DNA from: Cenococcum geophilum 1.58
Taxonomy: Eukaryota > Ascomycota > Dothideomycetes > Gloniales > Gloniaceae
Reading direction: 5' to 3'
Length of the DNA: 64,000 nucleotides
NCBI GenBank assembly: GCA_001692895.1
Contig: KV748209.1
Span: 1,054,001-1,118,000 of the forward strand
Part shown: positions 12,539 to 61,440 of the stretch, piece by piece
How the letters are laid out: every line of letters begins with the position of its first letter
Numbering within the stretch: position 1 is the stretch's first letter
Notes under the pieces: generated by a model
The model's database searches: none
The model's input: only the letters and a program-made list of their open reading frames with translations
Told to the model about the DNA's origin: nothing
Position numbers and translations under genes: made by a program

Positions 12539-14234
12539 TCAAGAGAAGTCCTCGCCCGTCTCCTCAATACCGTTCTTGATCCTGAGTAGGAGCGTCGTCT
12601 TCCACTTATCAAGTTTGCTCATCTGGTCGTACTGGAATAGCTGCAGCGGAGTTAGCACTCGTACGAGAACACACCAGTAGCCAGGAACTTACCTTATCGG
12701 CGAATGCTTCTTGGTCGCCCTTGAAGAATAATTATGTTAGCTCAGCCAAACAGTTGGGGATTTGGAGAAAATACATCTGAAACCGCTTGAGTAAGGTCGA
12801 CGAGGAGCTGGTGTTCTCTCTGCTGCGTGAAACTGGGGTCAAGATCGCGGTAGCGCTCTAGGGCTGTGTTCATCCCCACAATGTCTCCAGTGGCTAGCGA
12901 ACAGATACCTGCTTTAAGCAAGTACTCCTTCACGGACCATTTCCTATATAAAGGTAAGAAAGGCTCCGGAAGCAAGATCAAATAGATACAGACATGGTAC
13001 TCCTTCACGGACCATTTCCTATATAAAGGTAAGAAAGGCTCCGGAAGCAAGATCAAATAGATACAGACATGGTACTCCTTCACGGACCATTTCCTATATA
13101 AAGGTAAGAAAGGCTCCGGAAGCAAGATCAAATAGATACAGACATGAGGTTGTTTTGGATACTTGATTTCGCTAGAGTTGAGAAGATTAGACGAGTTTAT
13201 TTTCCATTCGAGGAGTGGCAACGTACCAACGCGCTCGTACAGCCCGATGGCTTTATAGTAGTCTTTTCCTTCCAGTGCAACCAAATCCGCTAGAGAGCTC
13301 ATTTAGCTTATTTATGACCACTATGCAAGGAGTGACAATGAACAAACCTGTCTTAAGCCATAGCTTGTTCGCCAGTGCTTCCTATATCTATATAAGTAAA
13401 GTGAGCTTAAATTCCTGAGTTTTGACACTTACAGCATTATCCTACCAAATATTCATTAGTACTTGCAATAGAACTATCTTGCACGGCTGGTGGGGCTACG
13501 CACCGACTCGTACCAGCTGGCAGCTTCTTCGAAAGCTGCCGCAGCCCTCCCTTGGTCACCAAGTTCGACCTCGAATAACTCTCCAAGATTCTCCTTATCT
13601 GGTTTGAAAGTGAATATAAAACGATAACAAATGTGTCATCCGACAGGTTCGGAAGAATGAGGCGGTACTTACGGGTAGCCGCGCGGCGGAAATTTCCCTT
13701 CGCGCAGTAGTGCTGTATAGCTTTTAAAACGTAAGAAACAGTAGGGTATGATTTCGGCAGGTATAAAACCTTTCTCTAGACACCGAGCTGCGTCTTCGGG
13801 ATCTGTCTTCCTGTAGGCCTTGAATGCATCATTCATGGTATTGGCTGCATCATCCTACACGCACTAGTCAGATAATAACTCAAGTGGTGCGGAAAGCTCC
13901 TAAATTTTACAGGCTCATTCAAATGCTGTAGTTGGATGGACGCAGCCTTCTCAAATGCTAAACCGGCTTCCTTTCCTAGACTTATCGTCAGTGCTACCAC
14001 CCCACGTGATACGACACGAGCACTTTACCTTGCTTGGCCATGCGAAATGCGTTGGCCGCCTGGATGTAAAGATCTGCCGCATTTTCATCTGCACCTATTT
14101 AGTTCACTATTTCAGGATTGTGGACGTATATTCTAACACTTCTCCTGCCGCCCGCCGAATAAGCTGAAACCGGAGCCTGCACCACTTAGCGCTTTCTCTG
14201 CCTTTTGAAGGGCGACCCTCGGATCCTGAGCCAT
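12539..14234 (-). CDS. sec17: Alpha-SNAP / Sec17 vesicular fusion protein
   Basis: Thirteen exons reconstruct 293 aa, the usual alpha-SNAP length: 14234-14138, 14088-14029, 13975-13911, 13854-13770, 13720-13673, 13598-13504, 13441-13433 (9 nt), 13381-13348, 13289-13227, 13171-13144, 12943-12775, 12719-12693, 12640-12539. The start MAQDPRVALQKAEKAL, the TPR-like helical repeats (YENAADLYIQAANAFRMAKQ, FEEAASWYES, ALANKLWLKTADLVALEG, NNLMKWSVKEYLLKAGIC) and the end (LDKWKTTLLLRIKNGIEE) follow Sec17 throughout. Alpha-SNAP sits on SNARE complexes and recruits the ATPase NSF/Sec18 to disassemble them after fusion, in the cytosol at membranes. Two exons are tiny (9 and 28 nt). The intron between exons 10 and 11 is triplicated with part of exon 11; only removal of the whole 200 nt (13143-12944) gives the normal protein. 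Identity is near certain. Confidence 0.93.
12921..13145 (-). repeat. 75-bp tandem repeat, three copies, spanning an intron-exon junction of sec17
   Basis: Units are 12921-12995, 12996-13070 and 13071-13145 and look identical apart from the outermost base. Read on the gene strand, each unit is one complete 50-nt intron (donor GTCTGT, acceptor TATATAG) plus 25 nt of exon beginning GAAATGGTCCGTG. Donors therefore occur at 13143, 13068 and 12993 and acceptors at 13094, 13019 and 12944. Near-perfect identity means a recent duplication or an assembly artefact. Confidence 0.9.
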
Positions 14235-19671: not shown

Positions 19672-20957
19672 GCGAGGGAAGGGTAGAGGGTGAGGGATTA
19701 GGACGAGTGGTTTTTTCCATAGCCCGGGTGAGCCTCAATGGACTGGGGGCTAATGTAGAATTGGGCTTTGGGGAGGCAAATAGAAGAGCTTCAAGGACTG
19801 CGATACATGAGTTCGGAAAATGCTTGGTAGCTTTTGCCTTACTATAATAATTAAACAATTTATCTTCTCAATCACATACGGCCATAGGTAATGGCAAACA
19901 GAGGGTCCCGTCCGCTCCCCTGTACTTAAACCATTAACCGGCAGATTAGTAGTTAGGTGGGTGACCACTAGCGAATACCTGCTGCTGTATGTTTTTGACA
20001 TTTTTGCCATTTGACATAGGCGAAATTTTGCCCGTCGTGCTTGCAGATGTTTAGCACTATATACTACCTATTCCTATGTAGATGTACTAGCAGGATACAC
20101 TCTTTGAACTGGACGTAAGTAGATGCTCGTAATGCCTATCACATGGTCGGGTCCTGCCAAGGTCGCTTATATTCGCGACTGGATTTAGATTTTCCGATTG
20201 GTTGATTCTTATCGATAACCTAAGGACCAAAATTGCCGTGTCAAGGGAAGGCTTGCTCGACAGTTATGATCCCACGATCGTGGCCCGCGGACACCAAAAT
20301 ATTAACAAATGTATCCATCATAGAATATATATAGCTTCCTACCTTAATTATATACCACAATGGGTCGTAAGCCTTCAAGAAAACTAAAGATATAAAATCA
20401 CGCAATTAAAGAACATTAACTCTCTCGCGGTAAGTAGTAAATAAATAACTTCCTTAATTGAATACATTACCGAAATAGTATATAATTATATTTCTTATAA
20501 TGTAGATCTTATCCCTTCCTACACTAGTTAACGTCCACGCATATCGATAAGGGTTTGGCCAATCACAAGCTCTCGTTCAACTGAAAGCTTGGCTCTGATA
20601 CTGATGTTCATAGGCTTGGCGCCAAGCTGTGGACGCCAGCGTGGGAAGCTCACAACAATATCACGTGATGAGGCTTGGCGCTGAGTGAGGAGAAACCTCG
20701 TCTACCACCTATATAGAAGATAAGCAATAACAGAGCTTTAGCTACATGACCTGCCAATTTCAACATAGAGAGCCCGCTCTCAGCAGTTCCCTTGATCATG
20801 CGAGATTGACTAGACTTCTCATGGCGCTTGTGCATGCAACCCGATATCTCTTACACATCGGATAACAGAAACCCTGAACGATCGGTTAGAACGGTACATT
20901 ACTTAATTTCCTCTCCTTCCCCTCCTCAGACGGCCTCCCTTATCCCCAGGTCACACC
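19672..20957. other. Intergenic, partly AT-rich; upstream region of the P450
   Basis: No gene is supported. AT-rich runs at 20.28-20.52 kb resemble decayed repeat DNA. Near 20.60-20.69 kb, two GCTTGGCGC-containing strings flank a CACGTG site; the first sits in an inverted repeat (aggcttggcgccaagct). Confidence 0.45.
20661..20668. promoter_or_regulatory. Palindromic TCACGTGA (bHLH-type E-box)
   Basis: The eight-base palindrome lies about 290 bp upstream of the P450 ATG. CACGTG cores are bound by bHLH regulators in fungi. Whether this one controls the P450 is inference. Confidence 0.35.
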
Positions 20958-22795
20958 ATGACACTCAACGAATATCTGAGAAATCCATCCATGGCGCTAC
21001 CCAGCGTAGCATGCACGGTATGGGTCTTGTATATTGCTAGCCTTGCTATTTATCGACTGTACCTCAGCCCACTCGCCAAATTTCCTGGCCCAAAATTAGC
21101 CGCACTTACAAGATGGTACGAGGCATACTACGATATTGCGCTGAAGGGAAAATTCGGCTTTAATATTCAGGACATGCATAAGAAATACGGTAAGCTGAAA
21201 GTTTTATTCATTTTTTTGCCCCTCATATGTCGTGCGTGTCGGTCTGATCCGGTTTCAGGCCCTATCGTTCGAATCGCACCGGACGAGTTGCATATTCAAG
21301 ACAGCGACTTCTGGGACGAACTCTATGTAAAAAATCCACGAGCCGATAAGCCTTCCTGGTGGGCGTCGAGGTTCGGCAACGAGGGCGCGATCTTCTCGAC
21401 ATCGAACGCTACCGTCCATCGTCGCCGTAAGGGAGCGCTTAATCCAATGTACGCTCCTATATTAGCAACTAATTCTTATTGCGTCGCAGTATTGACTTAT
21501 TCTAGGTTTTCAAGACGATCAATATTGAACTTTCAGCCAGTGATTCGGGAAAAGGCCGAGCTATTATGCAAACAAATTGCAAAATACAAAGATACCGGGG
21601 CGCCTCTTGTTGTCAATGAAGCTTTCCCTGCCTTTTCTGGTGATATCATGACAGAATATGCGTTTGGCGTATGTTACAATCACGTCGAATCCCCTAATTT
21701 TTCCGAATCCCTCCATTCAGCATTCATGGCTGTTGCAGTGCTCGGCCACGCTGCAATCCAGTTTCCACTGTTACACTCTGTGAGTTTAACTCTATCCAGA
21801 TATTGAAGAGTCCCGGATGCTAAAGATCGTGCAGATTTTGAATCTTCTTCCAGACTCGCTTGCTGAAAAACTAAACCCTGCGGTACGGAGTCTGTTGCTG
21901 GTCCACCAAGTTAGACAGCCCTTCCCAAACTGCTCTCGATTTCGAACGGCTACTAACAGTATTTGATAAAGGATATCGCAAAGAGGATTAAATCTATCAT
22001 TAATAAGGAAGAACAACTCGATAAAACTTCTTTCCATCGCACCGTCTTTGATGAAGTGCTCGATAGCGACCTTCCACCTGAATACAAAACAGCCAAATTT
22101 CTCGCGGACGAAGCGCAGTCATTGATTGGAGCCGGGACCGAAACAGTTTCTTGGGCGCTCTGCACAGGGACCTTCCATATCATCAACACCCCACGGATAT
22201 ATAAGAAGCTGCGTGATGAGCTTTTCGAAGCAATTCCCGATGCTTCACGGCAGTTGGATTGCGTGCAGCTCGAGAAACTCCCATACCTTAGAGCATGCAT
22301 CCATGAGTCTGCCAGGCTCTCATATGGGGTTTGTACACGGAGTCCAAGAGTTCCTGATAAACCCCTTGTGTATAAGGATTGGGTTATCCCGGCTCGCACA
22401 ACAGTATCTATGACGGTTACTGGTATCCACCATGACGAGAACATCTTTCCTGATTCGCACTCCTTCGTTCCTGAAAGATGGCTTGGTAACCCCAAAGCAC
22501 CAAGCGGATTTCCTTTGGATCATTATTTTGTATCTTTTGGGAAAGGGCCAAGATCCTGTCTCGGGGTAAAGTACGTGTTTCTTTTGACAATTCCGAGCGA
22601 CAATTGTGCTGATATTTAATTAGCCTCGCTTACGTGGAGATGTTCTTGGCCTTTGCGATGATATTCCGACGGTTTGGATTGGAATTGTACGAGACCGATA
22701 TTTCTGATGTGGAGTTGAAACATGATCTCTTCATACCGTTTGCGAAACTAGACTCCAAAGGCGTAAGAGTGAGAGTTAAGGAGATTTACACGTAA
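20958..22795 (+). CDS. Cytochrome P450 monooxygenase, complete, 6 exons
   Basis: Exons 20958-21189, 21259-21448, 21506-21779, 21835-21909, 21972-22570 and 22624-22795 encode 513 aa. All introns have GT..AG ends and preserve frame. An N-terminal hydrophobic anchor (~residues 15-35) precedes the FPGPKLAALTRWYEAYYD hinge, so the protein should sit on the ER with heme in the cytosol. Diagnostic motifs are all present: AGTET in the I-helix (311-315), ESAR (ExxR, 369-372), PERW (424-427) and the heme loop FGKGPRSCLG with Cys453 (446-455). Sequence style around the hinge and the loop resembles fungal secondary-metabolism P450s such as the trichodiene-oxygenase-like group; the substrate cannot be read from sequence. 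It is the last intact gene before the repeat block, ~180 bp from an LTR. No partner biosynthetic gene is visible. Confidence 0.9.
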
Positions 22796-40733: not shown

Positions 40734-42677
40734 CCATCTCCCTCCTCTTTATCTTTATTTTTAAAGATACCTAATATCTCTAAGTTGTTTACTAAAGGTG
40801 CAATATCCGTCTAATTAATTTGGTTAATATTATTACTTATAATACCTAAAGTACCTTCTTCTTCTTTAACTCTTTATTATACGCGTACAGTCTCCTCTAT
40901 ACTGTTGCTTAGTGAAGTAATACCGTCTCTATATTCTTGTTGTGCGAAAGAGGGGTTAGTTTGCGTTACGTTGGCAAGTCCCTTATCCCGGCAACCTTCC
41001 TCTTATTTAGAGTGCACTAGAGCAAACATTTAATCGTCTTACAATGTTCGCTCGGTTTCTAACGCTGAGTGTACGCATCCTATGACTCTTAATTGTCTCT
41101 AGATGTTGCTCCTTCCGTCTTGTAAAGCAATAGATGCCGTATCCAACGGTGTTATAATGCCCATTACTAAACCTTGCTCTATGGCGGTCTTAGTCTCTAC
41201 TTCTATTACGTTATTAAGGTTTAGATATCCCTAGTTAGTTCCTTTACTATCCTTATCGCTATTAATTAATAAGTATTCCGACTCCATTATTATTATTACT
41301 AATCGTTATCCGTATATTACTGTAATATCTTAATCTAGCTTATAGAGTCGATCTTAATCTCTATCTAACTCTTTAGTTCCTTTAAGTCCTTTTAACTCCG
41401 GCTCTTATAGCTAATAGCTTATACCGTACTTAGCGTCTTTATAAATTTGGTATGCGTTATTATAACAAAACGCAAAACTTCTAATTAAATATTCTTTTGT
41501 TCCTCGCAGTATACTATTATTCCTCTATATATATATATTATATACTGCTAGTCTAGTTCCCTTTACTACGTAATAACTTTAACTACTTCTACAGTCTTTG
41601 GCGAAATAACCCTATTTTCCGTAATTTATGCAAGCTCCGTCTTTAAACCATTGTTTTTACTATAGAGTTTGCTTAAACGTCTTCTATTGCTAAGATCCTT
41701 AGTTTAGCCTATGCTCCTTAGTCCTATAATTACTTAATCCTTAACCTCTAGGTTTTTATAGTTTCTTACTCCATCTTTTATAGGCTTCTTTAGTACCACT
41801 TAGGTCTATTAGCTCTGCGCTATACTATAGTTTCTAATTTAGCTTTAGTTNTTNCGTGCTNTATNTCTTATATAACTATANNACTCTATCCTAGCCNCTC
41901 TTAGCCTATTCCCTTTNGAAGATCCTATTATTAATCTTAATCGCTTAATCTATTAATTCCCTTAGGGTATCCGCATCTTCTATCAGAATAATTACGTTCT
42001 GGACTTTAGCCTTAAGTCCCTATTTATACTATGCCATAAGCGCCTTATTATTCCACTTAAGTTATATAGCTAGTGTTTAGAATTATATTATGTACTTAAT
42101 TACTAAAGTTTGTTGCGTTAGGTCCTAAAGCTTTTTTTTTACTATAGTTGTTGCTTCCGGGTCCCCGAACATTTACGTAAGTCGCTCTATAAATCCGTTT
42201 TAGCTTAAAAACATAAACCGTACTTCCTAGTTTATTATTATTATTCCGTTTACTTATATCTCTATAAGATAAGGCTTAAACTATTTAAGTGCTCTTCCTA
42301 ATAAGAACAATCCTGCATATGCTACTTAATCTATAGTTATTACTAGCTTCGCTCCTTCTTACGCAACCTTAAAGTATATTTATATAAGGAATCCTTTAAG
42401 CTTTAATCTCTCTCCTAAGAATCTTTTAATCGATAGTAACTTAACCTTTACTGCCCCTATCCCATTAATCCTATTTTTAAGTGCCGCATTATCTTCTATT
42501 AACTAATTAACTATTATTTATAACTGTTCTACTGTCACAGGTTGTTATAAGTTAGTGTTTATTATACTAGTGTCATTACCTAATCCTAACGTAGTTACCG
42601 CCGTCAATAGTGTTATAGTGGCTGCTTTTAGTGGCATATTATTTAACTTATTAGAACTATAACTGTGGTAGTAATTA

Positions 42678-56200: not shown

Positions 56201-57237
56201 CCATTTTTCTTGTTATAGAGTCCGCCTAAATGTCTTCTGCTACTAAAATCCCTAATTCGGCCTCTACTCCTTAGACCTTTAATTACTTAATTCTTATCCT
56301 CTAGGTTTCCACGGTTTCTTACTCTATCTTTTATAGGCTTCTTTAGTACTACTTAGGTCTATTAGCTCTGCGNNATACTATNGTTTNTAACTTAGNTTTA
56401 GTTNTTANNTACTNTNCGCCTTATATAACTATAGAACTCTATCCTAGCCTCTCTTAGCCTGTTCCCTTTGGTAGATCTAATTATTAATCTTAATTACTTA
56501 ATTTATTAGTTCCCTTAGGGTATCCATATCTTCCATTAGGATAATTACGTCTTAGACTTTAGCCTTAAGTCCTTACTTATACTATGCCATAAGCACCTTA
56601 TTATTCCACTCTACTTACGTTGCTAACGTTTGGAACTACATTATATACTTAATTACTAAGGTTTATTGCGTAATATCTTGGAGTTTTCTTTCCGCTATAG
56701 TTACTGCCTCTAGGTCTCTAAATATCTATATAAGTCGTTCTATAAACCCTTCTTAGCTTATAAATATAAACCGTACTTCTTAATTAGTGGTTATTATACC
56801 ATTCGCTTATATCTCCGTAAGGTAAGGCTTAAACTACTTAAGTGCCCTTCCTAATAGAAATAGTCCCGTATATGCTATTCGATCTATAGATATTAGCAGC
56901 TTAGCTCCTTCTTGCGTAACCTTAAAGTGTATTTATATAAGGAATTCTTTAAGTTTTAATCTTTCTCCTAAGTACCTTTTAATTAATAGTAACTTAATCT
57001 TTGCTGCGCCTATCCCATTAATCCTTTATTCCAATATTATATTATTTTTTATTAGCTAGTTAACTATCTCTTATAGTTATCCGACTATTACAAGTTGCTG
57101 TAAGTTAGTATCTGCTATACTAGTGTCGTTACCTAACCTTAAAGTAGTTGCCACCGTCAATGGCGTTATAGCTAGTGCTTTTAGTGGCATGTTGTTTAAC
57201 TTTCTGTATTTAATACTATAACTAGGTAGTAATTATA

Positions 57238-60944: not shown

Positions 60945-61440
60945 ATTAACACTTAAAAGGCTTAAAGTTGCGGAGATTAAGGTTAAGGCGTAGACTTAAA
61001 AGGCTCGGAGGTTACGGAGATTAAGGTTAAGGCGTAGACTCAAAAGGCTTAAAGGTTATAAAGATTAAGGTTAAAGTATAGGCTTAAAAGGCTCGGGGTA
61101 CGGAGATTAAGGTTAAAGCGTAGATTCTTATTGCGGTAAACTTAAAGTACTATCTATGCGGATTTAAAGACAGAGAGACGGAGAGATTAAAATCGGTAAC
61201 CTATAGTCTTACACTATAATTAAGATATAAGGAATATAGCCCGCAGGGTATCTCCCTATAGCCGGCTTTAGAAACTTGGGATATAAAGTAAAAGTATAGC
61301 TAGATATAGAGACTTAGAGACTAAGATAGAGAAACTATAGCCCGCAGGGTGTCTCCCTACTACCGGACTAGGAAACTTAAAGACTAAAAAGAGAAACTAT
61401 AGCCCGTAGGGTGTCTTCCTACTACTAGCTTAGAAACTTA
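60945..61440. repeat. Two internal tandem arrays of the TRIM-like element
   Basis: The first array repeats ggagattaaggttaaRgcgta about four times at roughly 50-bp spacing. The second repeats a segment around agcccgcagggtgtctcc three times. Non-coding. Confidence 0.7.

Follow-up and report, generated by a model that had tools for sequence, protein, structure and literature searches.

An array of three identical intron-bearing units in the single sec17 gene of Cenococcum geophilum 1.58

How a gene can go on supplying its normal protein when one of its introns stands three times in a row is a question raised by the sec17 (alpha-SNAP) gene of Cenococcum geophilum 1.58, whose counterpart in yeast is essential. 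We analysed this gene in a window of 64,000 nucleotides (positions 1,054,001 to 1,118,000 of contig KV748209.1, GenBank assembly GCA_001692895.1), to which all coordinates below refer. Our best explanation, to which we assign a probability of roughly 0.45, is that a 75-bp stretch with a complete 50-nt intron and 25 nt of exon was triplicated recently in the single sec17 gene, and that functional Sec17 would come mainly from transcripts in which the first donor is joined to the last acceptor, with 200 nt taken out and 293 aa encoded. The triplication would then be a mutation with which splicing can cope, rather than a device shaped by evolution. Minority in-frame forms may be longer by 25 aa (first donor to second acceptor), by 50 aa (first donor to first acceptor) or by 18 aa (three introns, with a slipped third donor), and much of the remaining transcript would carry an early stop.

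The array and its gene

The splice model of sec17 (Table 1) was set by hand with known Sec17 homologues as a guide and later checked against solved chains. Removal of the outer 200-nt intron (13143-12944) and the 11 other introns, which are 49-74 nt long (median 55), gives a 293-aa protein that matches yeast Sec17 (1qqe_A) over residues 4-291 with E 8e-58 in phmmer. All seven distinct solved sequences matched at E <= 0.001 are alpha-SNAP or Sec17, one of them fused to SNAP-25, and the alignment contains no indel against solved chains at the junction NNLM/KWSVKEY, which means that the single-unit gene structure is very probably the ancestral one. When the spliced protein was searched against the assembly (177,193,698 bases in 162 contigs), nine of nine matches at E <= 1 fell within this gene, as did five of the seven matches to the PF14938 profile; the other two scored 17.1 and 16.2 bits against a cut-off of 25. 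Neither the profile nor the protein search thus revealed a second sec17 above the cut-off in the 177-Mb assembly and, as the gene is single-copy, some in-frame product is to be expected from it if it is needed.

Table 1. Features of the sec17 locus, in window coordinates
Feature	Position	Strand	Basis
sec17 / alpha-SNAP gene, ATG to stop, 12 introns with 13143-12944 counted as one	12539..14234	-	splice model, phmmer, PF14938, protein matches
Array of three identical 75-bp units	12922..13146	-	TRF; unit comparison
Unit 1, intron copy 13143-13094	13072..13146	-	splice model; unit comparison
Unit 2, intron copy 13068-13019	12997..13071	-	splice model; unit comparison
Unit 3, intron copy 12993-12944	12922..12996	-	splice model; unit comparison
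Outer intron D1-A3 (200 nt); without it the gene reads as the 293-aa Sec17	12944..13143	-	splice model; phmmer
Second, weaker donor of unit 1 (GTATCT)	13134..13139	-	loose gene finder; enumeration; scoring

The repeat was reported by TRF with period 75, 3.0 copies, 100% matches and a score of 450, the highest among the 31 TRF rows for the window, and direct comparison of the units found 0 differences at any of the 75 positions. A first-pass annotation of this DNA had described the same triplication of a 50-nt intron plus 25 nt of exon; its description stands, with its coordinates (12921-13145) one base too low. Each unit consists of three exon bases (CAT), a 50-nt intron that begins GTCTGT and ends TATATAG, with a branch-like CTTAC motif near its end by eye, and 22 bases of the next exon. 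TRF, the splice model and the unit comparison together place tandem units across an exon-intron boundary of a coding gene, and two exact tandem copies of 75 bases are not a possible product of chance. The three main donors (D1-D3, at 13143, 13068 and 12993) share an identical local context, and so do the three main acceptors (A1-A3, ending at 13094, 13019 and 12944). A second GT lies 4 nt downstream of the main donor in every unit (GTATCT, at 13139, 13064 and 12989); it was first noticed through a loose gene finder and then enumerated and scored. At the unit junction, where GAGTAC meets CATGTC, no new AG/GT is formed, and the splice sites inside each unit are those of the existing 50-nt intron. 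Read without splicing, the minus strand also holds a 186-aa open frame (12742-13302) that crosses the three intron copies and continues in the Sec17 frame.

The most serious alternative, though an unlikely one, is that the array is an assembly artefact or a minor allele, with a single unit in the true gene or a copy number that varies in the culture. The exactness of the repeat speaks for this, as do 18 Ns elsewhere in the window, single or paired and not gap runs, which lie scattered in two clusters in AT-rich DNA (41851-41917 and 56373-56416) and mean that the consensus is not firm everywhere. The array itself contains no N and sits on a 1.8-Mb contig of the 177-Mb assembly, whose contig size and number (162) suggest that long reads were used. 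The contigs are of megabase size, and a 225-bp repeat is well within the length of a long read; the array gave one match in the assembly, and the search found no single-unit copy elsewhere. Moreover, assemblers collapse such repeats more often than they expand them. The array is thus presumably real in the DNA; should it prove an assembly error or one culture's private mutation, it would have little importance.

Reading frame and splice-site choice

To compare the possible products, we enumerated the patterns that pair D1-D3 with A1-A3. Three of the 13 stay in frame, all of them using donor 1 without a second splice: D1-A1 encodes 343 aa (50 more than normal), D1-A2 318 aa (25 more) and D1-A3 the 293-aa protein with nothing added. 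This follows from the unit being a multiple of three and free of stops in the read-through frame, which leaves D1 in frame with any acceptor. Separate removal of the three 50-nt introns yields 211 aa and then a TGA. When the second donors were included (main and second donors, the three main acceptors, no intron shorter than 40 nt), 41 patterns arose, of which 7 were in frame and 34 were not, the additional in-frame ones being D1'A1+D2'A2 (+36 aa), D1'A1+D2'A3 (+11), D1'A2+D3'A3 (+11) and D1A1+D2A2+D3'A3 (+18), of which the last removes introns of ordinary size (50, 50 and 46 nt). These results bear out what the first-pass annotation had read from the frame, namely that outer removal restores Sec17, here with a match to yeast Sec17 free of indels at the junction, that three separate removals bring an early TGA, and that splicing of the first copy alone stays open, at 25 aa per extra unit. 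Its further claim that an essential gene depends on the outer-to-outer choice agrees with the frame arithmetic at the main sites and with the single sec17, but goes too far in that D1-A1 and D1-A2 are in frame as well and the second donors, absent from that annotation, bring the count to 7 of 41; such dependence is plausible and not forced.

In favour of D1-A3, it alone among the enumerated patterns gives the conserved protein. Against it, a 200-nt intron is out of line with the other 11 introns of the gene, and since the local sites in the three units are identical, each donor would be expected to pair preferentially with its nearest acceptor. Weighing both, we put the chance that D1-A3 is the main source of Sec17 at a little under one half. 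For reference we used a strict gene finder, which left sec17 itself uncalled and provided a small set of predictions, 40 introns in 29 genes. The lengths of 22 of these introns lie between 46 and 56 nt, while 3 are 125 nt or longer and 1 is 200 nt or longer. The main donor, GTCTGT, occurs in none of the 40, and C at +3 in only 2; its score of 2.77 falls at the 2.5th percentile. It therefore looks weak, and a weak donor leaves room for intron retention and skipping.

How far local pairing alone could carry the gene can be judged from a nearest-site model in which each intron is spliced independently with efficiency p. With the main sites, the in-frame share is p(1-p)^2, which peaks at 0.148 and drops to 0.009 at p = 0.9, and none of it is normal Sec17. 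Under the limits of this model, three possibilities are left: skipping, use of the slipped donor, or a low output of Sec17. Wild-type fission yeast shows very little exon skipping; mutations in factors that act at the branch site and the 3' site promote it, and slower transcription suppresses it (PMC4547733).

We also asked whether folding could favour outer splicing. A hairpin is predicted in every unit (for example 13060-13121, minus strand), in which the branch-site region pairs with the acceptor and the following exon. The fold of one unit, at -18.3 kcal/mol, was equalled in stability by 17 of 200 shuffles, and z scores for the regions folded (-1.57 for 241 nt, -1.44 for the 225 nt of the array, -1.56 and -1.00 for single-unit pieces) show nothing unusual.

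Somewhat less probable than an artefact is that the read-through forms are the main functional product, that is, D1-A1 with 50 extra aa and D1-A2 with 25. Both are in frame and open, D1-A1 is an ordinary 50-nt intron, and the chance that a unit would have a length divisible by three and contain no stop when read through is only about 0.09-0.21. The lower figure is 1/3 x 36/129, from the stop-free intron-frames of 43 introns (the 11 in sec17 plus 32 predicted introns no longer than 75 nt), and the higher is 1/3 x 0.63, from the proportion of shuffled introns without a stop when donor and acceptor bases are held fixed; as a sign of selection, the stop-free, frame-preserving unit is a weak hint. 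Opposed to this, copies 2 and 3 would have to be retained though identical to copy 1, a combination bounded by the model shares given above. The inserted residues, moreover, are partly hydrophobic (best 15-residue mean hydropathy 1.86) and would fall between NNLM and KWSVKEY, a region aligned gap-free to solved homologues.

An improbable route, and a less probable one again, is that three short introns are removed singly and that a slip to GTATCT in copy 3 restores the frame, giving a 311-aa Sec17 with 18 extra residues. D1A1, D2A2 and D3'A3 together keep the frame, their lengths are of the kind most common in the reference set, and this was the choice of the loose gene finder, which preferred it to D1-A3. 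That program recovered 9 of the 11 other sec17 introns exactly, along with false ones; it overcalled, AT-rich DNA included, from 504 to 1457 introns over four rounds, and we dropped it save for the hint of the slipped donor, which weakens that support. The slipped donor scores 1.51 against 2.77 for the main donor, and GTATCT is found in 0 of the 40 predicted introns. The route also needs the main donor in copies 1 and 2 and the second donor in an identical copy 3, which would have to come about by chance or by decay of the other products.

A more speculative extension, which we regard as quite improbable, is that the array acts as a minisatellite buffered by splicing. As the unit length is divisible by three, the intron has no stop in the read-through frame and D1 stays in frame with any acceptor, copy number could change without killing the gene, each extra copy adding an isoform 25 aa longer and lowering the share of normal protein. 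If true, copy number would act as a heritable and reversible control on a gene central to membrane fusion.

More doubtful is that the allele has lost its function or is strongly reduced, with an intact allele in other nuclei or sec17 non-essential in this fungus; the 34 out-of-frame patterns, whose transcripts would presumably decay, fit this, while the single sec17 of the assembly and the rest of the gene, intact and reading well, do not. A maintained, regulated splice switch in which copy number sets the length or dose of Sec17 is scarcely credible: the frame arithmetic would permit it, but zero divergence argues for youth, there is no sign of regulation, and the predicted hairpin over branch site and acceptor is unremarkable.

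Age, origin and known systems

We return to the preferred reading, a recent triplication spliced mainly from D1 to A3. With zero divergence among the copies, either the event would be recent or the copies have been kept alike, and we infer a young array. The array ends sharply, the flanking bases extending it on neither side, and unit comparison found no microhomology at the breakpoints, where the bases next to the array do not match the ends of the unit. Such ends are compatible with end joining after staggered breaks, a guess for which our literature search found nothing. The DNA beyond 24 kb (24001-60000; TpA/ApT 1.63, (CpA+TpG)/(ApC+GpT) 0.38, GC 0.309) is AT-rich and bears the marks of repeat-induced point mutation (RIP), whereas the gene-rich part (1-23000; 0.82, 1.20 and 0.491, respectively) does not. 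In Neurospora, RIP needs roughly 400 bp; the array, at 225 bp, is below this size and may have escaped it.

Other tandem duplications that span an exon-intron border have been described, and comparison with them suggests that the sec17 array is most likely of this known kind and not a new mechanism. In human duplicated genes, short tandem repeats across the exon-intron boundary (on average 30-bp units, about 4 copies and 160 bp) cause transcripts to be spliced in more than one way, and a form that retains the repeat is often among them (De Grassi and Ciccarelli 2009, PMC2812944); the sec17 unit differs in holding a complete intron and in lying in a single-copy housekeeping gene of a fungus. 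An RdRp gene of potato gained a new intron, built from part of an intron plus exon sequence, when a segment spanning the boundary between them was duplicated in tandem (Ma et al. 2016, PMC4974935). There, as in sec17, the copied segment includes splice signals that already existed; in sec17, unlike potato, the whole intron was copied and a new intron is not in evidence. Tandem duplication has been argued as a source of introns in Drosophila, where a size that is a multiple of three permits retention (Lehmann et al. 2010, PMC2891723). The sec17 array is likewise a tandem duplication in a coding gene, compatible with retention for the same reason, but the Drosophila introns arise from exonic proto-splice sites (AG/GY), whereas the sec17 sites belong to an existing intron. 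The description in the first-pass annotation of a snapshot of tandem-duplication routes to intron change is thus fair for a young duplication and unsupported as regards a new intron or a changed one.

Stwintrons, complex intervening sequences of ascomycetes, resemble the array in that their removal may take a single outer reaction or a series of inner ones (PMC8469720, PMC7138796). We nevertheless rejected a stwintron, as no donor, branch or acceptor element is interrupted and 25 exon nt separate copies that each have their own donor and acceptor. An introner-like element was likewise set aside: among the best candidates scored, the array matches its own genome once (a count of at least one) and not at many unrelated sites. 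As for the unusually stable, symmetrical structure of introner-like elements, folding gave z -1.56 for a single unit and z -1.44 for the whole array. Introns are also said to have been derived from tandem arrays, to judge by the title of a 2007 paper. In the literature searched, to which most subscription journals did not belong, we found no fungal case of a triplicated whole intron or of a tandem duplication across an exon-intron border.

It is seldom that the duplication of a complete intron is met so young, before its copies have diverged, and in sec17, a housekeeping gene, the outcome of every splice choice follows from the frame. The array offers a natural experiment in which the Sec17 protein would report whether, in a fungus, the spliceosome joins a donor to the closest acceptor or passes over identical sites. 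It also shows how frame (a multiple of three, no stop) may filter which intron duplications survive.

Rarity in the genome sample

Two TRF runs, a survey of about 0.1% of the genome made up mostly of kinase genes with four AT-rich loci, indicate how unusual such an array may be: apart from sec17, no exact array of period 20 or more was found in 32 loci (L007-L038, 119,835 bases) plus the window, nor one of 20 or more in 34 loci together with the opening 23 kb of the window, 176,262 bases in all. The second run did return two other exact, short arrays (15 and 17 bp, 2.1 copies).

Imperfect arrays were also observed, one at 60951-61124, towards the distal end of the window, with period 44/88, and another in AT-rich sequence upstream of it (L042:4051-4244) with period 71, 2.7 copies and 80% matches. 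Another sampled locus, L040, contains 43 Ns. Within the window, the plus strand carries open frames at 20907-22619 that we take, from a motif seen by eye, to be cytochrome P450-like.
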